DNA of 36,878 nucleotides from the NCBI GenBank assembly GCA_902522015.1, contig CABYTX010000009.1, positions 1-36,878 on the forward strand, in the 5' to 3' direction. Origin of the DNA: an uncultured Alphaproteobacteria bacterium (GTDB lineage Bacteria > Pseudomonadota > Alphaproteobacteria > HIMB59 > GCA-002718135). The position numbers were made by a program, and so were the translations under genes. This document shows, in pieces, positions 2,367 through 21,639 of this stretch. Within the stretch, counting starts at the first letter, position 1. Every line of letters begins with the position of its first letter. The notes below the pieces were generated by a model. The model did no database searches and had not been told where the DNA came from. It was given only the letters and a program-made list of their open reading frames with translations.

Positions 2367-4289
2367 TTAATCTTTTTTATCTTCGTCTACTTCTTCAAAT
2401 TCAGCATCTACAACCTTTTCATCTTTTGTATTATCAGCTGATGGTTCAGCACCAGATGGATCAGGTTGAGGTCCAGCACCTTGAGGGTTTTGTTTATAAA
2501 TTGCTTCACCCATTTTAAGAGATGACTGAACAAGTGCTTCAGTTTTAGATTTTATAGCTTCTAAATCCTCACCGTCTTTTACTTTCTTAAGCTCTTCAAT
2601 ATCCTCTGTGATTTTATTTCTATCAGCTTCAGGAATTTTATCTCCGTGCTCTTTTAAATTCTTTTCAGTTTCATTAATTAAACTATCAGCATGGTTTCTA
2701 GTATCAACAGCTTCTCTTTTCTTTTTGTCAGCTTCAGCATTTTCTTCTGCCTCTTTGACCATTTTTTCAATCTCTTCATCTGATAATCCACCAGAAGCCT
2801 GGATCTTGATTTGTTGTTCTTTACCAGTTGATTTGTCTTTAGCCGAAACGTTTACAATACCATTTGCATCTATATCAAAAGTTACTTCAATTTGAGGCAT
2901 TCCTCTTGCGGCAGGTGGAATACCTACTAAATCAAACTGACCTAGTAATTTGTTGTCAGCAGCCATCTCTCTTTCACCTTGAAAAACTCTAATTGTTACT
3001 GCACTCTGATTATCTTCAGCTGTAGAAAATACCTGGCTCTTCTTTGTTGGGATAGTTGTGTTTTTATCAATTAGTTTTGTGAATACGCCGCCAAGTGTTT
3101 CAATACCAAGTGATAAAGGTGTAACATCAAGTAATAATACATCTTTGACATCACCTTGTAATACGCCTGCTTGAATAGCAGCACCAGATGCTACAACTTC
3201 ATCAGGGTTAACACCTTTATTAGGCTCTTTACCAAAGAAGTTTTTTACTATCTCTGTTACTTTAGGCATTCTTGTCATACCACCAACTAAAATAACATCA
3301 TCAATTTCTGCGGCTTGTAATCCAGCATCCTTAAGAGCCATTTCGCAAGGTTTTAAACTTTGGTTTAAAAGTTCCCCAACAATAGCTTCTAGTTTTGCTC
3401 TAGATAATTTAATCGTTAAATGTTTAGGACCAGATTGATCAGCAGTAATGAATGGCAAGTTTACTTCTGTTTCAGTTGAACTCGATAATTCAATTTTTGC
3501 TTTCTCAGCTGCCTCTTTCAAACGTTGAAGAGCAAGTTTATCTGAACGTAAATCAATACCATTATCTTTTTTGAATTCGTCAGCAAGGTAATCAATAATT
3601 TTAAGATCAAAATCTTCACCACCAAGATGCGTATCACCATTGGTTGATTTAACTTCAAAAACACCGTCACCAATTTCTAAGATAGAAATATCAAATGTAC
3701 CTCCACCAAGATCATAAACAGCAACAGTACCAGTTTTCTTTTTATCTAAACCATATGCTAACGCTGCAGCAGTAGGCTCGTTAATAATTCTTAAAACTTC
3801 TAGTCCAGCTATTTTTCCGGCATCTTTTGTTGCTTGTCTTTGAGCATCATTAAAATAAGCGGGAACTGTTATAACTGCTTGTGTAACAGTATCTCCTAAA
3901 TAAGACTCTGCTGTCTCTTTCATTTTTTGTAAAATAAATGCACTAATTTGACTTGGACTATATTTATCTCCACGTGCTTCTACCCAAGCATCACCGTTAT
4001 CACCTTTTACTATTTTATAAGGTACTAGTCCGCTGTCAGACTTAACAGCTTTATCCTCAAATGTTCTTCCGATTAATCTTTTTATGGCAAATAAAGTATT
4101 TTCAGAATTAGTTACTGCTTGTCTTTTAGCTGATTGTCCAACAAGTTTTTCTTTTGTGTCACTGAATGCTACCATTGAAGGAGTTGTTCTTCCTCCCTCA
4201 GCGTTTTCTATTACTTTTGCTTCCTTACCGTCCATTACTGCAACGCAGGAGTTTGTAGTACCTAAATCAATACCTATTACTTTTGCCAT
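2367..4289 (-). CDS. dnaK: Chaperone protein DnaK (Hsp70)
   Basis: ATP-driven foldase working with DnaJ and GrpE in the cytoplasm. The N-terminal ATPase domain starts [18 protein letters not shown] and includes the phosphate-binding GGGTFD. The interdomain linker region reads [19 protein letters not shown], and the C-terminal tail ends in [10 protein letters not shown] chose the ATG at 4289 (640 residues). An in-frame start 33 bases upstream is possible, but MAK is the universal Hsp70 start and a good AGAGGA ribosome site lies 8 bases before it. A sigma-32-like promoter precedes it in the 125-base gap after grpE, so dnaK and dnaJ can be induced separately from hrcA-grpE. Confidence 0.98.
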
Positions 4290-11551: not shown

Positions 11552-12292
11552 TTAGTTTAGAATTTTTTGTGCTTTTACAAGATCTATCTTTCCTTCATAA
11601 AAAGATTTACCTGAGATTATTCCTTCAATGTTTTTAAGATTAATTTTTTTTAAATTTATTAGATCAGAGTAATCTGTTAGCCCGCCTGCAATTATTATTT
11701 TTTTATTAAATTTTTTAATTAGGTTTATTTTTTTAAGAAAATTATTAACAAAATCTAAATTTAAACCTTTTAACATTCCGTCATTTTGAATATCCGTAAT
11801 TACATATCCTTTAATTTTTGACGTTGAATAAATATCGAGAATATCCTGTATTTTTTTTCCTGAATTTTCATCCCACCCTTTTATCATTATATTGTCTTCA
11901 AGAATATCTAATGATATGTATACTTTATCCGCATACTGATTTGATAAAATTATAACTTCATTTGGTTTTTCAACAGACATTGAGCCAATAATCAGATTAT
12001 TTATTCCAACCTCAAAGTATTTTTTTGCTAAATCTAAATTTCTAATCCCACCACCTAATTGAATTGGTATTGAAATAGATTTTCTAATTTTCTTTATTGT
12101 TTCAAAGTTAATATTTGATCTACCAAATGCGGCGTCTAAGTCAATTAAGTGTAATTTTTTACAACCAATTTCTTCAAAGTAGATAGCTTGTTTTTCTGGG
12201 TCTTCATTGTAAACAACGCTGGAAAGATCTTTGCCTTTAGAGAGTCTAACACATTTATTATCTTTTAAATCAATGGCTGGTATAATTTGCAC
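11552..12292 (-). CDS. hisA: Phosphoribosylformimino-5-aminoimidazole carboxamide ribotide isomerase
   Basis: TIM-barrel Amadori isomerase of histidine synthesis. The catalytic D8 ([15 protein letters not shown]) and D129 (SLDI) are in place, together with [25 protein letters not shown] and IIIAGGLTD. The start codon is GTG at 12292 and shares one base with the TAG stop of the upstream acetyltransferase gene (TAGTG), so translation is probably coupled. Length 246 is typical. Confidence 0.96.
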
Positions 12293-12834
12293 TATATGTT
12301 TTTATAATAATAATAACCCTTAATAAAGCTCCCGTTAATATAAGCATAATATGGGTTTTCACCCCACTTGGTATAATTTTTACCAGTAAAAAGTTTTATA
12401 GCGGCATCTTGTGTTTCTCTTACAGCTAATTGTAGTGATTTAATATTATCTTCTTTTGCAATTTGCTCGGTATAATCGATCATTGTTTTAGCTAAACCAT
12501 AACCTCTTGCCCATGGAGCAACAAACTGTCTTCTTATACGTGCAATATTTTTTCTAGACTCAATGTTAGGTGCCTCATACGCAAGTTGAAGGGTTCCGGC
12601 TATAACACCATTAAGCCTACCAACAATAAGTTTAATATATTTATCGTTAGTTCTTTTAGTCCAATAATCTATTAAAATATCTCTTGTAGGAACTCTTAAC
12701 CAACCAAAACCTCCTCCGGCTTTAATTGCTTGTTCTGTAATATTACAAAGGTCAGCTAAATCTACATCTGTAAGTGTTTCAATATTATCAACTGAAATAT
12801 TAATTTTTTCTTTTAGTTGTGTAGACATGTTCAT
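12292..12834 (-). CDS. GNAT-family N-acetyltransferase inserted in the his operon
   Basis: The 180-residue product has a GNAT layout: an N-terminal helical part, strands IKLIVGRLNGVIAGTLQLAYE, then the acetyl-CoA-binding RRQFVAPWARGYGLAKTMID (motif RGYGLA), and C-terminal LQLAVRETQDAAIKLFTGKNY with YYAYING. The ATG at 12834 overlaps the hisH stop by 4 bases (ATGA), and the stop overlaps the hisA GTG by one base, so it is a true operon member. No step of histidine synthesis needs an acetyltransferase. The substrate is unknown; small-molecule amine or protein N-acetylation are both possible. Confidence 0.8.
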   Translation of the reverse strand: MNMSTQLKEKINISVDNIETLTDVDLADLCNITEQAIKAGGGFGWLRVPTRDILIDYWTKRTNDKYIKLIVGRLNGVIAGTLQLAYEAPNIESRKNIARIRRQFVAPWARGYGLAKTMIDYTEQIAKEDNIKSLQLAVRETQDAAIKLFTGKNYTKWGENPYYAYINGSFIKGYYYYKNI

Positions 12835-16029: not shown

Positions 16030-17364
16030 ATGAGTATTATTAAAAGCATCAAATTTGAATTGCTTATTTTAGCATTAATTACATTAAGTATTTTTACTTC
16101 TTTTAATTTAGATCTTTTTTTTTATAGTTATTTTATAAACTTAAATGAGTGGGTAAATGGAATTTTTCTAAAAGAATTTTTTTCAGAAATAACAAAACTT
16201 GGTAGTTCGTCTTGGTATTTTTCTATTACAATAATAGGTTTTGTAATTTTTTATATAAACAACAAACTTCAAATCATAAAAACTAAATCAGCAAAAAACA
16301 TTTATAATTTTTTTATTTCTTCTTTTGTTTATATTTTGACAGTTGGGATTATTACTCAAATTATAAAACATGTGGTAGGAAGGCCCAGACCAAATCACAC
16401 TGATTTTGAAAACGTTTTTAGTTTTAAATATTTTAGCCTGGAATCAAATTTTCATTCTTTCCCCTCTGGACACTCTTCTACAATATTTATAGTTTGCTTT
16501 ATTTTGGTTTCAGTTGCTCCAAAATTAAGATATTTTTTTTATTTTTTAGCTTCTGTTGTTGCTTTTAGTCGAGTTGTAGTAGGTGCGCATTTTTTTACAG
16601 ATATTGTTGCTGGGGCAATTTTAGCTTTAATATTGTTTAAGGTTTTAAATATATTAATAGAAAATAAATATAATAAATACAAATTTTCAAATTTAATTCC
16701 TGAAAAAAATTCTGAGATTTTTTATTACTTTCTAATTTTGCTTTTTAGTTGTGTATTTGTAACTGCCGCCCCATCCTTAGACTTATATGTATCATTTTTG
16801 TTTTATAAGGGGGCATCACAATTTGTATTACAAAGTTTAGATTTAACTTCAATATTGTTTCGAGATATTTTATTACCCCTAATACTTATTTATATTTTAA
16901 TTTTACCAATAGTTGGACGTTTCTTTAAAATTGATAGAATTTTTTATAACTATCAGTTTTCTATTAAGGAGATAGTTTTGTTGTGGATTTCTCAAATTAT
17001 CAGTGTTTTAATTTTTGTTAATCTTGTTCTAAAAAATTTTTGGGGTAGAGCAAGACCAAACGATGTAGTGGAGTTGGGTGGGAAAGAATCTTTTTCGCCG
17101 TGGTTTGAAATAAGCAATGCTTGTGAAACAAATTGCTCCTTTGTTTCGGGTGATGCCTCTGTTGGATTTTCAGTAATAATTCTATATTTAATTACAAAAA
17201 AAATAATTTTTCTCTATGCAAGCTTTGTTGCTGGTTTTATATTGGGGGTAATTAGAATAATGGCTGGCGGTCATTTTTTAAGTGACATTTTCTTTGCTGG
17301 TTTTTTTATTGTTATTTTAAATATAATTTTATTTGAATTGTATAAAAAATATTATGCTAAATAA
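16030..17364 (+). CDS. Membrane protein with two tandem PAP2 phosphatase domains
   Basis: A polytopic protein of 444 residues holding two PAP2 (phosphatidic-acid/lipid phosphatase) domains. Domain 1 is complete: K113-x6-R120P121, P145-S-G-H148 and S180-R181-x5-H187-x3-D191. Domain 2 has K335-x6-R342P343 and R409-x5-H415-x3-D419, but its middle motif reads VSGDAS (372-377), with Asp replacing the usual SGH histidine. About a dozen hydrophobic segments are visible. It probably removes phosphate from a lipid or polyprenyl carrier at the periplasmic face. The following GT39 gene overlaps it by 11 bases, so a joint role in lipid A or glycolipid modification is likely but unproven. Confidence 0.85.
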   Translation: MSIIKSIKFELLILALITLSIFTSFNLDLFFYSYFINLNEWVNGIFLKEFFSEITKLGSSSWYFSITIIGFVIFYINNKLQIIKTKSAKNIYNFFISSFVYILTVGIITQIIKHVVGRPRPNHTDFENVFSFKYFSLESNFHSFPSGHSSTIFIVCFILVSVAPKLRYFFYFLASVVAFSRVVVGAHFFTDIVAGAILALILFKVLNILIENKYNKYKFSNLIPEKNSEIFYYFLILLFSCVFVTAAPSLDLYVSFLFYKGASQFVLQSLDLTSILFRDILLPLILIYILILPIVGRFFKIDRIFYNYQFSIKEIVLLWISQIISVLIFVNLVLKNFWGRARPNDVVELGGKESFSPWFEISNACETNCSFVSGDASVGFSVIILYLITKKIIFLYASFVAGFILGVIRIMAGGHFLSDIFFAGFFIVILNIILFELYKKYYAK

Positions 17365-18739
17365 AATTCTATTTCCATCATTAATTGTTTTACTTCTATT
17401 AAAAATTGGTGCCTTAAATTTTACTACTTTTAATTTATTTGGTGATGAAGCACAGTATTGGCTATGGTCAAAAGATATTGACCTTGGTTATTTTTCGAAA
17501 CCCCCTTTTTTATCCTGGATAATAAGAGTTTATACAGAAATATTAGGTAGTAGTTTTGTTGTATTAAAACTTCTCCCATCGTTTGTTTATTTATTGATTG
17601 CTTGGAGTATTTATCATCTTTTAATTAACGCTGGATTAAATAAAAAAGATTCATTCGCAGGTTGTTTAATTTTTTTATTTATACCCGCTGTTTCTTTTTC
17701 ATCTTTTATAATTAGTACTGATCTTTTTTTATTATTATTTTGGACACTTTCACTCAATCAATTAATTAAAATTAACAGTGAACGAAGTTTAAAAAATTTT
17801 ATATTATTAGGTATTTTCCTTGGGCTGGGTTTTTTATCGAAATATGCAGCTATATATTTTGTAATTTGTTTATTTGTTTTAATTTTATTTGATAAAAGAT
17901 TTAGTAAAATTTTTTTGGATAATTTATTAGGTTTTAGTCTTACATTTTTGTCTGTATTTATTATTATTGTACCAAATATTATTTGGAACTTTAATAATGA
18001 CTGGGTAACACTTCAGCATACTTCGGATAATGCAAATTTTGGAAATATTGAAATAGATCTCATTAGGGGTTTAGAATTTTTGTTAATTCAAGTTTTAATG
18101 TTGGGTCCATTCATGGTTTTGGGTGGGTTATTTGGGTTTAATAAATGGAACTATATTCAAAAAATTTTTTTAATATTTTCAATACCTATAATTTTAATTG
18201 TTTTGGTAGAAGCCATTATTGTTAGAGCTAATGCAAATTGGGCTGCTCCAGCTTTAATTTCTTTGTTTGTTCTTTTGTATATTAGAATTAATAATTCTTT
18301 TTTAAAGATAGCTAATTACATGTTTAATTTTACTGTCTGCTTCATTCTTTTTGTAATGATTGGAATGAGCTATCCGTCTAAAATTTTTGACCGAATAAGT
18401 GGTATAAATGATTATGCTCTGAAAATTTACAGCAGTTCTTCAGATGGTGTCGTAAAAAATATAGTAGTTTCAGATCGGCTATTATTTTCAAGCCTTAATT
18501 TTGAATTAAGAGATAAGGATATTAATTTCTATATGCCACATAAAGAAGGCAGTGAAATAACAAACCATTTTAAAATAGTGTCTCCTCTTAATAAACATAT
18601 AAATGAAAACTTTACTTTAATTGGAAGCCCCTCAGATATAAATTATTTAGAGAATGAATATAAGGTGCTAAAAATAAATTCGCCTGATCAGAAATTTACA
18701 AAAAGAAAACTTGATGTTTACGAGGTTGTCTTTGAGTAA
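17354..18739 (+). CDS. GT39/ArnT-like polytopic glycosyltransferase
   Basis: 461 residues from the ATG at 17354, the start I prefer over an upstream TTG at 17333. The first periplasmic loop carries the catalytic acidic pair in FNLFGDEAQYWLWS (D31-E32), typical of PMT/ArnT-family enzymes that use polyprenyl-phosphate sugars, followed by DIDLGYFSKPPFLSWII. Around ten transmembrane segments lead to a periplasmic C-terminal domain of about 110 residues. It overlaps the PAP2 gene by 11 bases and the DUF3108 gene by 26. The family transfers sugars to lipid A or other envelope acceptors outside the cytoplasmic membrane; donor and acceptor cannot be read from the sequence. Confidence 0.83.
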   Translation: MLNKILFPSLIVLLLLKIGALNFTTFNLFGDEAQYWLWSKDIDLGYFSKPPFLSWIIRVYTEILGSSFVVLKLLPSFVYLLIAWSIYHLLINAGLNKKDSFAGCLIFLFIPAVSFSSFIISTDLFLLLFWTLSLNQLIKINSERSLKNFILLGIFLGLGFLSKYAAIYFVICLFVLILFDKRFSKIFLDNLLGFSLTFLSVFIIIVPNIIWNFNNDWVTLQHTSDNANFGNIEIDLIRGLEFLLIQVLMLGPFMVLGGLFGFNKWNYIQKIFLIFSIPIILIVLVEAIIVRANANWAAPALISLFVLLYIRINNSFLKIANYMFNFTVCFILFVMIGMSYPSKIFDRISGINDYALKIYSSSSDGVVKNIVVSDRLLFSSLNFELRDKDINFYMPHKEGSEITNHFKIVSPLNKHINENFTLIGSPSDINYLENEYKVLKINSPDQKFTKRKLDVYEVVFE

Positions 18740-19385
18740 ATTTCTAGTTTTTTTTATTATATTTGTAATTAATACATCGTATGCAAATAATTTTAGTGCA
18801 GAATATAAGGTCAGCACAACAGGGATAAAAATCGGTAATTTTAGTTGGTCATTAAGTATTAAAGATAATATCTATCAAACAGAAATTAATTTAAAAAATT
18901 CTGGCATTTTTTCACCCCTATATAAATTTGAAGGAAGCTATCTTTCAACTGGGGTTATTGAAAACAACATATTTAAAACTAAGAATTATAAACAGTTTTG
19001 GAAAACGAAAAAGAAAACAAAAATAGTTAAAATGTCTTTTGATGATTATTTAATTGAATTAAAACAAGAACCTATAGAAGAAGAAATAGCTAGAGTAAAC
19101 CTAGAAAATTTATATTTATATTTTGACCCAATCACCTCTTTTATAAATATTTTAAATGGAGAAGATGAAGCAAAAACTATTGATGGAAGAAGAATTTATA
19201 GACTTAAAAAAAATGAAGGGGAAGATGGAAATATAATTTTAAAAATTAAAGACTACACAAATATTTGGGCTGATCATAAAAGAAATGATTTGAAAAAAAT
19301 TGAATTTTTTATTGAAGATAAATTTCTTCCATATGAAATTCTTATTCATTTTAAAGAAAGAGTATTTAAGTTAGAAAGAATTTAA
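18714..19385 (+). CDS. DUF3108-family exported protein
   Basis: 223 residues with an N-terminal signal sequence (LSKFLVFFIIFVINTSYA). The mature part starts FSAEYKVSTTGIKIGNFSW and continues with repeated beta strands such as YQTEINLKNSGIFSPLYKFEGSY, LYLYFDPITSFINIL and LPYEILIHFKER. This fits the DUF3108 pattern of periplasmic, beta-rich proteins. The ATG at 18714 lies inside the end of the GT39 gene, so the gene belongs to the same transcript. Function unknown; context suggests envelope or lipid-linked sugar handling. The stop overlaps the convergent smr gene by 4 bases. Confidence 0.68.
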   Translation: MFTRLSLSKFLVFFIIFVINTSYANNFSAEYKVSTTGIKIGNFSWSLSIKDNIYQTEINLKNSGIFSPLYKFEGSYLSTGVIENNIFKTKNYKQFWKTKKKTKIVKMSFDDYLIELKQEPIEEEIARVNLENLYLYFDPITSFINILNGEDEAKTIDGRRIYRLKKNEGEDGNIILKIKDYTNIWADHKRNDLKKIEFFIEDKFLPYEILIHFKERVFKLERI

Positions 19386-19921
19386 AGCTTTTTTTTTCTT
19401 AAATAGACAAACAGAGCTCCGTCGCCCCCATGTTCAAAACCTGCGTCTTGATATGTTAAGATATATTTCTTTAGATTGTCTTCATTTATCCAGTTTATTA
19501 TTGAGTTTTTAATCTTTCCATAGAAAAGCTTGGGGGTTGTATCTTGATCATTTTCAATTTTTTTATGAACCCCTTTTCCAGTAATTATAAGCAAGCATCT
19601 TTTATTCTTGTTATAATTTTTTTTTACCTCACTTATAAATTTTTCATGTGCTTCGACTAAACCATACCCATGAAGATCAATTCTTCTATCTATATTAATT
19701 TTTCCCCGCTTAAGTTCTCTGTTAACCTCACCAAATGATAGTTTAAATTCTGAGCTACTACCCCTGTGTTCAGTTATTGTTTGTTTGTTGGTATTTGTAT
19801 TATTAGTTCTTTTATCTAATTTTACATTTTTTTTATTAGTTGTTTTCGTTTTAACTATTGAGGTATCTTTTTTAAAAGGTTTTACACCCTTCATGTTTTT
19901 TAAAAAAAAATCTTCTTCCAT
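19382..19921 (-). CDS. Smr-domain protein (Smr/MutS2 C-terminal family)
   Basis: The C-terminal Smr domain (about 78-178) shows the signature DLHGYGLVEAHEKF, the LLIITGKGVH strand and loop, and the closing HGGDGALFVYLRKK. The N-terminal 75 residues are a basic, Asn/Thr/Lys-rich low-complexity tail (for example KTKTTNKKNVKLDKRTNN). Smr domains are nucleases or nucleic-acid-binding modules. This small alphaproteobacterial form is usually beside mltA and tim44; its role is not established. Its ATG shares one base with the lysozyme stop in TAATG order. Confidence 0.9.
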   Translation of the reverse strand: MEEDFFLKNMKGVKPFKKDTSIVKTKTTNKKNVKLDKRTNNTNTNKQTITEHRGSSSEFKLSFGEVNRELKRGKINIDRRIDLHGYGLVEAHEKFISEVKKNYNKNKRCLLIITGKGVHKKIENDQDTTPKLFYGKIKNSIINWINEDNLKKYILTYQDAGFEHGGDGALFVYLRKKKL

Positions 19922-20349
19922 TATTTTTTTGTATAGTTTTTAATTAAATTCTTTACTCTTTCAGGTGTTTGTAAATACCACAAGCTGTCTAACATCTCTA
20001 GTGATGCCATGAATTTTTGTTTTTTGTTTAGAAAATAAAGCATTTTCTTAAATTTAGAGACGCCCTTTGCTCCAAGTTGAAAAATCATTTCTATTAATAA
20101 TTCCTTCTCTGAAGTTGTGTGATTTTTTTTAAAAAATATTTTTTTGTATTGTTCGTGTGCTTTTTTAAAGTCTATCTCAAACAATTCTTCAAAATATTTT
20201 TTTTTAAATTTTTTAATATAATATTTATTTCCTTTTTCTGTAATAAGATGACCATAACCAATAGTATAAAACCCTAATTGATCTTGATAAGGCTTATCAG
20301 AATAACCCTCATTTTTTTTAATTCGGTTTTTGAGTTCTTTAAAGGACAA
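19921..20349 (-). CDS. T4-type phage lysozyme (GH24 muramidase) without signal peptide
   Basis: 142 residues aligning along nearly its whole length with T4 lysozyme. The catalytic triad has exact T4 spacing: E14, D23 and T29 in NEGYSDKPYQDQLGFYTIGY, followed by H34 (GYGHLIT). The C-terminal FQLGAKGVSKF and SLWYLQTPERVKNLI match T4's FQMGETGVAGF and SRWYNQTPNRAKRVI. The last helix is shorter than in T4. The start is TTG at 20349; an in-frame TAG directly upstream excludes a longer N-terminus, so no export signal exists. It sits between tim44 and smr, the usual place of mltA. Activity should be muramidase; access to the periplasm is unexplained. Confidence 0.88.
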   Translation of the reverse strand: MSFKELKNRIKKNEGYSDKPYQDQLGFYTIGYGHLITEKGNKYYIKKFKKKYFEELFEIDFKKAHEQYKKIFFKKNHTTSEKELLIEMIFQLGAKGVSKFKKMLYFLNKKQKFMASLEMLDSLWYLQTPERVKNLIKNYTKK

Positions 20350-20352
20350 CTA

Positions 20353-20934
20353 TTAAGTTTGAGTTAATATCCATATAGGACTAGAAGAGTTTACTGGTTT
20401 TTCAAAAGTCCAGGTATCTTTATTTTTAACAATAGAACCCTCATCATTATTTAACATCTGTTCACTAATAAAATTAACCGATATTGATATTGTGTCATTT
20501 TCTACTTTTGCATCTGCAATGCCTTCTACAATAAGTGAATAAAATTGTGATTCTGGATTGTTTGTTTTTTCATCAATCGCTTTTTCAAAAGTAGAATAAA
20601 CATCTTTAGACACAAGGTTTTTCAGTGTTTTTTTATCTCCATTGTTGAAAGATGAAATTATAATTTCAAAAGCTTTCTTGGCACCATCAAGAAACTCTCT
20701 GTGATTAAAATTATTTACTTTTTTATATACTGCTTCAAGCTTTATCTCATTGTCCATTAGTGATGGTATTTTTTGAACATCTTCTTGTTTTTTGGTTTCT
20801 TGAGGTTTTGGCTCTGAGATATTTTTTTGAAATCCTGTTCTTTTCCCCAGAACACTCCTTAGCCTATAAATAATAAACCCAGCAATAGCTGCAAAAATTA
20901 GAATATCAAAAAATTGAAGGTCGCCGTAAATCAT
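20353..20934 (-). CDS. Tim44/TimA-like membrane-anchored protein
   Basis: 193 residues. A single N-terminal membrane segment (FFDILIFAAIAGFIIYRL) is followed by the typical LGKRTGF, a Lys/Gln/Pro-rich linker and a C-terminal Tim44-like domain (about 78-193) with FLDGAKKAFEIIISSFNNGDKKTL, the core helix pair, and FYSLIVEGIADAKVENDTISI. Related to mitochondrial Tim44 and alphaproteobacterial TimA. Its bacterial role is uncertain; an inner-membrane scaffold or import-like function has been proposed. Position between dnaQ and the lysozyme is conserved for the family. Confidence 0.88.
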   Translation of the reverse strand: MIYGDLQFFDILIFAAIAGFIIYRLRSVLGKRTGFQKNISEPKPQETKKQEDVQKIPSLMDNEIKLEAVYKKVNNFNHREFLDGAKKAFEIIISSFNNGDKKTLKNLVSKDVYSTFEKAIDEKTNNPESQFYSLIVEGIADAKVENDTISISVNFISEQMLNNDEGSIVKNKDTWTFEKPVNSSSPIWILTQT

Positions 20935-20964: not shown

Positions 20965-21639
20965 TTAATAGTTAAATTTTTTCCAAAGGGGGCTTTTTAG
21001 TTTTTTTAACATTTCTTTATGGGCAAGATAATCTTCTTTATTAACTTCTATTATTTTGGTTTTTGTTTCATTTTTGTTGTTAATTTGTGTGTTTTTTTCG
21101 GCAATGTTTGAATTCAGCTCCATAGAAAATTGCTTACCCCCTCTTAACTCTAAATAAACTGCGGCTAGAAGTTGGGAGTCAAGCAAGGCTCCGTGAAATG
21201 ATCTATCTGATAAATCAATGTTAAATCTTCTACACAAATAATCGAGGTTAGCTATTCTTGTATTTAGAACTTCTCTTGCAAGAGAAACTGTATCAACTAC
21301 AGGATTATCTAAATGAGGTAATCCTAAGATTGACAACTCATTATTTATAAAACCTAAATCAAATGATGCATTGTGAATTATCAATGTGTCGTTTTTCAAA
21401 AAATTTAATAGATCCATGTGGTTTTCTTCAAATGGTTTTTGTTGATTAAGAAAATCATCTGAAAGACCTACAATGTTTTTAGCCCCCTCGCTTATACTTC
21501 TGTCTGGTTTGCAATAAAATTGGAGTGTGTTTCCTGTAGGAACATAGTTTTTGAGTTCCACACAACCAACTTCTATTATTCTGTCACCGGTCTTATAATC
21601 AAGGCCTGTGGTTTCTGTATCAATTACTATTTCTCTCAT
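20965..21639 (-). CDS. dnaQ: DNA polymerase III epsilon subunit, 3'-5' proofreading exonuclease
   Basis: Proofreading subunit of the replicase. The DEDDh active site is complete: D7 and E9 (IDTETTGL), D94 (NASFDLGF), H149 and D154 (FHGALLDSQLLA). The 224-residue length includes a short C-terminal tail expected to bind the alpha subunit. It follows coaE on the same strand in the classical maf-aroE-coaE-dnaQ run; the secB gene that often comes next is not present. Confidence 0.95.
   Translation of the reverse strand: MREIVIDTETTGLDYKTGDRIIEVGCVELKNYVPTGNTLQFYCKPDRSISEGAKNIVGLSDDFLNQQKPFEENHMDLLNFLKNDTLIIHNASFDLGFINNELSILGLPHLDNPVVDTVSLAREVLNTRIANLDYLCRRFNIDLSDRSFHGALLDSQLLAAVYLELRGGKQFSMELNSNIAEKNTQINNKNETKTKIIEVNKEDYLAHKEMLKKLKSPLWKKFNY

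Follow-up and report, generated by a model that had tools for sequence, protein, structure and literature searches.

The gene at positions 19921 to 20349 of the window, the 36,878-nucleotide stretch of DNA analysed here, raises the question of what a phage-type lysozyme is doing in a run of cellular housekeeping genes, and why it lies at the very site that mltA occupies elsewhere in the class. The combined data favor, with moderate confidence, a model in which a domesticated muramidase, translated weakly and deprived of its holin-like partner, took over the MltA slot as a wall enzyme. The window belongs to the AEGEAN-169 clade (family GCA-002718135, order HIMB59). According to a published study, pure cultures of AEGEAN-169 then numbered two, both in the HIMB59 family, so that the lysozyme-carrying family GCA-002718135 had none at that time. 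The locus comprises the following features:

19921 to 20349, reverse strand: gene for a GH24 (T4-type) lysozyme of 142 amino acids, apparently a domesticated phage endolysin (PF00959, matches to T4 lysozyme in the PDB, tim44 and smr flanks)
20347 to 20349, reverse strand: TTG start codon of the lysozyme gene, conserved and never ATG across loci
20308 to 20310, reverse strand: codon of the catalytic Glu14, found in 86/86 loci and aligning to T4 lysozyme
20281 to 20283, reverse strand: codon of the catalytic Asp23, found in 86/86 loci
20263 to 20265, reverse strand: codon of the catalytic Thr29, found in 86/86 loci
20350 to 20355, reverse strand: tandem stop codons, TAA (of tim44) and TAG, immediately 5' of the lysozyme start, read directly from the sequence
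20353 to 20934, reverse strand: gene for a TimA/Tim44-like membrane protein, directly upstream (PF04280, E 2.9e-20; NCBIfam NF033779, 152 bits against a cut-off of 80)
19382 to 19921, reverse strand: smr, the downstream neighbor (PF01713), whose start codon shares one base with the stop codon of the lysozyme gene (TAATG)
20965 to 21639, reverse strand: gene for a DnaQ-type exonuclease (PF00929), part of the same gene run and present in 85/86 loci

The initial annotation had called the product a GH24 lysozyme, and the profile search bears this out. Specifically, the protein matches PF00959 with an E-value of 2.1e-9 (38.2 bits against the Pfam cut-off of 22.3), its sole Pfam match at E of 0.01 or below, and among the 60 matches listed in a sequence search of the PDB the best, at roughly 1e-12 to 1e-14, are variants of T4 lysozyme together with a single artificial lysozyme. 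Glu14, Asp23 and Thr29 are spaced as in T4 lysozyme (E-x8-D-x5-T), with which the protein aligns together with its C-terminal FQxG and QTPxR block, and the triad is intact in all 86 chromosomal loci. A structure predicted from 16 aligned members has a mean pLDDT of 90.3 and a pTM of 0.85. From the triad and the purifying selection on the protein core, the enzyme is predicted to be an active muramidase. The resemblance to the product of T4 gene e thus covers both the Glu-Asp-Thr spacing and the C-terminal block, whereas the protein is shorter (142 as against 164 residues) and its gene lies in a cellular housekeeping run.

The further claims that the protein lacks a signal peptide, starts at TTG and is preceded by an in-frame stop agree with the coordinates, the TAG and TAA codons and the hydropathy profile. 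The window's lysozyme has no membrane-like stretch, its highest 19-residue hydropathy mean being 0.54. Across the 86 loci, no lysozyme exceeds a mean of 1.6 (maximum 1.59, at residue 82), as opposed to 86/86 of the Tim44 neighbors, and hydropathy reveals no N-terminal signal or membrane segment of the kind found in SAR or signal-peptide endolysins. An in-frame stop lies within six codons upstream of the start in 72 loci; in the other 14, an open frame of more than six codons runs back over the end of tim44, which we take to be chance.

The gene is a stable part of its lineage. The chromosomal loci number 86 (one in the window, 80 on genome contigs and five in other genera; the scan of species genomes retained the best 80 of 87 relatives) and are all flanked by tim44 upstream and smr downstream, in keeping with the neighbors proposed from the sequence and confirmed by Pfam. 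A family-model search of order HIMB59 returned a lysozyme in 85 of 162 genomes, of which 78 belong to the window's genus (G081 among them, with its match on a phage-like contig) and seven to five other genera, so that the matches span six genera of family GCA-002718135; the sister family (sister genus g2) gave no match in the same search. Roughly 25 of the 102 genomes in the window's genus yielded no chromosomal lysozyme. In 12 of these, as well as in G081 and in G164 from another genus, tim44 was searched for and was absent from all 14, so that these 14 partial assemblies probably lack the whole stretch. The totals of 102 genus genomes and 143 order genomes (G000 to G142) are taken from the genome numbering. 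Two matches (G070 and G062) contain a stop inside the matched region, which we read as the gene end, their open frames being 142 and 140 amino acids long.

Selection and descent agree with this distribution. The median dN/dS of the lysozyme is 0.087 over 1386 non-independent pairs with dS between 0.2 and 1.2, alongside medians of 0.045 for tim44, 0.051 for dnaQ, 0.104 for coaE and 0.122 for smr, and its pairwise identity tracks that of the four neighbors with Spearman coefficients of 0.90 to 0.93, likewise over non-independent pairs. The lysozyme is inherited vertically and under purifying selection across the family.

The start codon of the gene is conserved across the loci. In 85 of the 86 loci, an in-frame TTG lies 13 or 14 codons ahead of the catalytic glutamate (76 and 9 loci, respectively), and ATG occupies this site in none of the 86, while no other leucine codon of the window's lysozyme is exactly kept in more than 73. 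The nearest start is ATG for dnaQ in 81/85, for tim44 in 82/86, for smr in 85/86 and for coaE in 80/85 loci. The 86th locus, L101, also has a TTG, 3 nt past the end of tim44, but the codon is shifted by one base relative to the lysozyme frame, either through an assembly error or by a real change; a run of T follows it (near 2986 to 3035 of that locus). The distance from the tim44 stop to the lysozyme start is 1 to 6 nt, and 3 nt in 62 loci. UUG is a weaker start than AUG, and position and conservation together suggest that ribosomes terminating on timA probably re-initiate at a UUG that is kept weak, giving a low, timA-linked output. A Tim44-lysozyme fusion produced by stop-codon readthrough or frameshifting was considered and rejected because the spacing conserves no frame relation: it is 3 or 6 nt, and thus in the same frame, in 67 loci, and 1, 2, 4 or 5 nt in the remaining 19 (L101 being counted by its in-frame codon).

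Viral relatives of the gene mostly have company. A small protein with two predicted transmembrane segments (phrog_2524 and relatives), whose position and hydropathy make it a holin candidate, is encoded in 60 of 80 viral lysozyme loci, no more than 100 nt away in 43 of them, and near the lysozyme gene of four of eight named phages; it was not found near the gene in the other 20 viral loci and four phages. The 80 viral loci are numbered L119 to L198, and further examples of the partner gene lie at L018:1893-2279(-), L283:1978-2367(+) and L284:2929-3282(+). L018 is the phage-like contig of G081 (C11), which carries a lysozyme, a holin-like gene and a Cpn10 gene and possibly derives from an infected cell. 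The viral partner family has no match in 80 chromosomal lysozyme loci, nor in 54 genomes of the order. That search was also silent in 14 control genomes and was hence backed by a positive control, which it recovered in 5/5 cases, the G081 contig included; the local partner model was seeded from three of the loci it then searched. The chromosomal lysozyme stands outside an ordinary holin-endolysin lysis cassette because the phage partner family, the one holin-like family searched for, gave no match.

The chromosomal protein also differs in charge. Its net charge per 100 residues averages +11.3 (lowest +6.2), compared with -4.6 (highest +6.1) for 81 viral proteins, and a 12-residue basic N-terminal helix carries a net +3.9 over the 86 loci compared with -0.4 over 71 phage rows. 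Basic charge is common to the neighbors coaE, aroE, maf and smr, and since some neighbors are equally basic, the shift may in part reflect background and is only suggestive of a lysozyme that became cationic.

These features can be ordered into a sequence of events. By the time of the last common ancestor of family GCA-002718135, if not earlier, the endolysin of a pelagiphage-like phage would have inserted into the chromosome between timA/tim44 and smr, at the position held by mltA in the rest of the class. It would since have been inherited vertically, presumably as an active muramidase, while the holin-like phage partner was not retained. Ribosomes ending timA would re-start a few bases on at the fixed weak UUG and thereby hold output low and linked to timA, and the protein would have turned cationic. 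The enzyme would most likely trim the glycan strands of peptidoglycan in the stead of MltA, reaching them across the inner membrane by a route that involves neither a Sec signal nor a known holin.

The main rival grants the enzyme its activity and denies it the crossing. Here, the lysozyme would be a latent autolysin, confined to the cytosol until the inner membrane gives way, for example upon cell death or through the holin of an infecting phage, and only then able to cut the wall; it would serve as a lysis helper or a device for altruistic self-lysis. The protein has neither a signal peptide nor a membrane-like stretch, the start codon is weak and the phage partner family is unmatched in the 54 genomes, all of which would suit such an enzyme, as would the holin-like gene beside a related lysozyme on the phage contig from the same genus (L018). 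Purifying selection of the observed strength would be hard to maintain on a gene that acts only at death, however, and the position of the lysozyme gene in the mltA slot would have to be a coincidence. We therefore consider a dormant cytosolic enzyme unlikely, while regarding it as the foremost competitor of a working wall enzyme.

How much the slot itself can tell depends on the fate of MltA. MltA is a lytic transglycosylase and an exported lipoprotein, in contrast to the signal-less hydrolase found here. The two enzymes share the slot beside tim44, and both would cut glycan strands, yet they belong to unrelated families, the window's lysozyme having no PF03562 match. Of 151 relatives searched, six carry PF03562, all from other families of the class, and no match was found in any of the 143 genomes of order HIMB59 among them; in a sample of 240 genomes from the class, 177 carry it. 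Among 16 alphaproteobacterial MltA loci, a non-random set made up of the six relatives and of those 10 among the 177 class genomes that scored highest, tim44 lies inside the flank of mltA in 15, while smr was detected in five, with flanks of 1.5 kb and an smr model built from the lysozyme-carrying family. The gene order tim44-mltA-smr that the initial annotation gave for relatives is thus borne out for tim44 in nearly all of these loci and, with such short flanks, for smr in some of them. One small-genome relative, G150 (L037), displays the full run tim44-mltA-smr-hslU, with hslU assigned by eye. Eight of 10 genomes tried from the sister family contain tim44, which is directly followed by smr in seven of the eight, the short locus L262 showing no smr after tim44, and neither MltA nor a lysozyme lies between the two. 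Across the class, one slot therefore exists in three states: mltA, nothing or the lysozyme.

This arrangement makes a replacement of MltA likely. The related genomes carry the lysozyme between tim44 and smr and lack mltA, as had been expected, and neither the want of a GH24 match, nor loss of the triad, nor an mltA gene elsewhere combined with a single-genome prophage remnant was encountered. The proposal of non-orthologous displacement is thereby upheld as regards a domesticated phage-type gene in the slot and the absence of MltA from the order, whereas the sister family, which lost MltA and put nothing in its place, weakens the link between the two events. Because this family has neither gene, the loss of MltA can be separated from the gain of the lysozyme; and because it manages without MltA, and SLT-type and MltB-type lytic transglycosylases remain in 54/54 and 47/54 order genomes, respectively, that the lysozyme functionally displaces MltA is something we infer. 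The same observations would fit a sequence in which MltA was lost earlier, in the ancestor of the order, and the lysozyme merely filled an empty site and took an unrelated job, for instance in the cytosol or in defense against competitors or phages. Against this, the incoming gene hit the very junction of mltA among some 1,500 in the genome (a rough guess from genome size), and its triad is intact throughout, which renders a chance occupation of the slot rather improbable. A replacement wall enzyme remains the preferred reading.

A bolder version of that reading assigns the export step to the upstream neighbor. The annotation had suggested the Tim44-like protein as a partner, and NF033779 does denote a Tim44/TimA family putative adaptor; gene order and the near-abutting reading frames are what speaks for this putative pairing. 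If it held, the phage endolysin would have become a housekeeping wall hydrolase that crosses the inner membrane through TimA, or with its help, and needs neither a holin nor a Sec or Tat signal. TimA, a bacterial relative of the anchor of the mitochondrial import motor, would gain an export role, the fixed UUG would couple the amount of lysozyme to that of TimA, and targeting would fall to the basic helix at the N-terminus. As a complete scheme, we consider this doubtful.

The domestication of a phage gene, also part of the original proposal, is consistent with the relatives and with the tree. Among phage records, the closest matches come from Pelagibacter phages and show 41-42% identity, and the best match on an IMG/VR contig reaches 47% (the best 80 of 174 relatives were kept). 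Bit scores against the family model are 157-241 for the chromosomal copies and 72-132 for genes from viral contigs and named phages, and stay below 50 for other alphaproteobacterial GH24 genes. The latter amount to 19 loci, two of which represent one place, and their 1.5-kb flanks contain neither a tim44 match nor a holin-like partner. In a tree of 63 rows, drawn with a midpoint root, the 28 chromosomal rows form one clade (support 100/100) set among phage rows, and the node uniting this clade with the nearest phages has support of 81/74. Rows were thinned at about 85% similarity (chromosomal from 86 to 28, viral from 81 to 15), and the fragment L193, L237, L239 and alphaproteobacterial rows of 33 bits or less were left out. 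Approximately unbiased (AU) tests do not reject joining the chromosomal clade with other alphaproteobacterial GH24 genes (p = 0.078 with 12 rows and 0.067 with eight).

From these sequence relationships, the lysozyme was apparently captured from a virus. The opposite direction, in which phages took the gene from the bacterial lineage, draws on a root that the data do not fix and on AU tests that are not decisive. It is nevertheless very improbable, given that the chromosomal genes are a single tight clade encircled by diverse phage genes, that the sister family has no lysozyme match and that viral copies mostly lie beside a holin-like partner. A prophage remnant or contamination in a single genome, which the phage-type enzyme and the phage-like contig in G081 might bring to mind, is practically out of the question and was ruled out by the tim44 and smr flanks of all loci, purifying selection and vertical descent.

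Pelagiphage endolysins (Baldr EXVC032P, HTVC119P, HTVC111P and HTVC200P) are among the nearest known counterparts. They are likewise GH24 enzymes of about 142-150 amino acids with no long N-terminal extension, and the best three show the 41-42% identity given above, HTVC200P 35%. In contrast to the chromosomal gene with its TTG, the phage rows read have methionine at this site, and their proteins are neutral or acidic, whereas the chromosomal lysozyme is cationic and has no two-transmembrane partner. The endolysin of gene transfer agents, BgtA (NCBIfam NF058676), is weakly similar, its 24.7 bits being far below the cut-off of 315. A role in gene transfer agent release was set aside: PF13547, the one marker used, occurs in 0/54 order genomes and was found in Caulobacter among the 14 controls.

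Signal-less phage-type muramidases kept by bacteria are already known, as PMC9527704 documents for TtsA, an enzyme of type 10 secretion described as depending on a holin and as linked to holin genes in related loci. The likeness to TtsA ends there: the window gene has no viral-type holin partner nearby, the viral partner family giving no match near the lysozyme, and it is family-wide rather than part of a secretion locus. No precedent for a partner-less, family-wide lysozyme that occupies the place of mltA in a free-living lineage was found among the open-licence papers searched, and none of the papers listed deals with this gene. A term search of PMC10308909 and PMC10734472 gave zero occurrences of lysozyme, peptidoglycan and transglycosylase.

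The best-known phage lysins reused by bacteria lie together with holins in loci for secretion or lysis. By contrast, the lysozyme described here is inherited vertically in a whole ocean lineage, without its phage partner and at the position of a standard wall enzyme. As such, the locus presents a natural experiment in the taming of a dangerous enzyme, through a weak fixed start, closeness to timA and a change of charge, and it opens to experiment the questions of how a muramidase without a signal gets to the wall or is kept away from it, and of what TimA does.

Two further observations concern the surroundings of the locus. Between hslU and smr, the window encodes at 16030-19385(+) a double-PAP2 protein with a weak resemblance to LpxF, an ArnT-like glycosyltransferase and a DUF3108 protein, possibly an envelope island. 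In the sister family and in G150, hslU adjoins smr without these genes between them; within the lysozyme-carrying family, DUF3108 is present in 86/86 loci and the ArnT-like gene in 79/86, as far as the available flanks reach. Additionally, a GNAT acetyltransferase gene lies at 12292-12834(-) inside the run of histidine genes, flanked by a hisA-like and a hisH-like gene, the his genes being assigned by eye.
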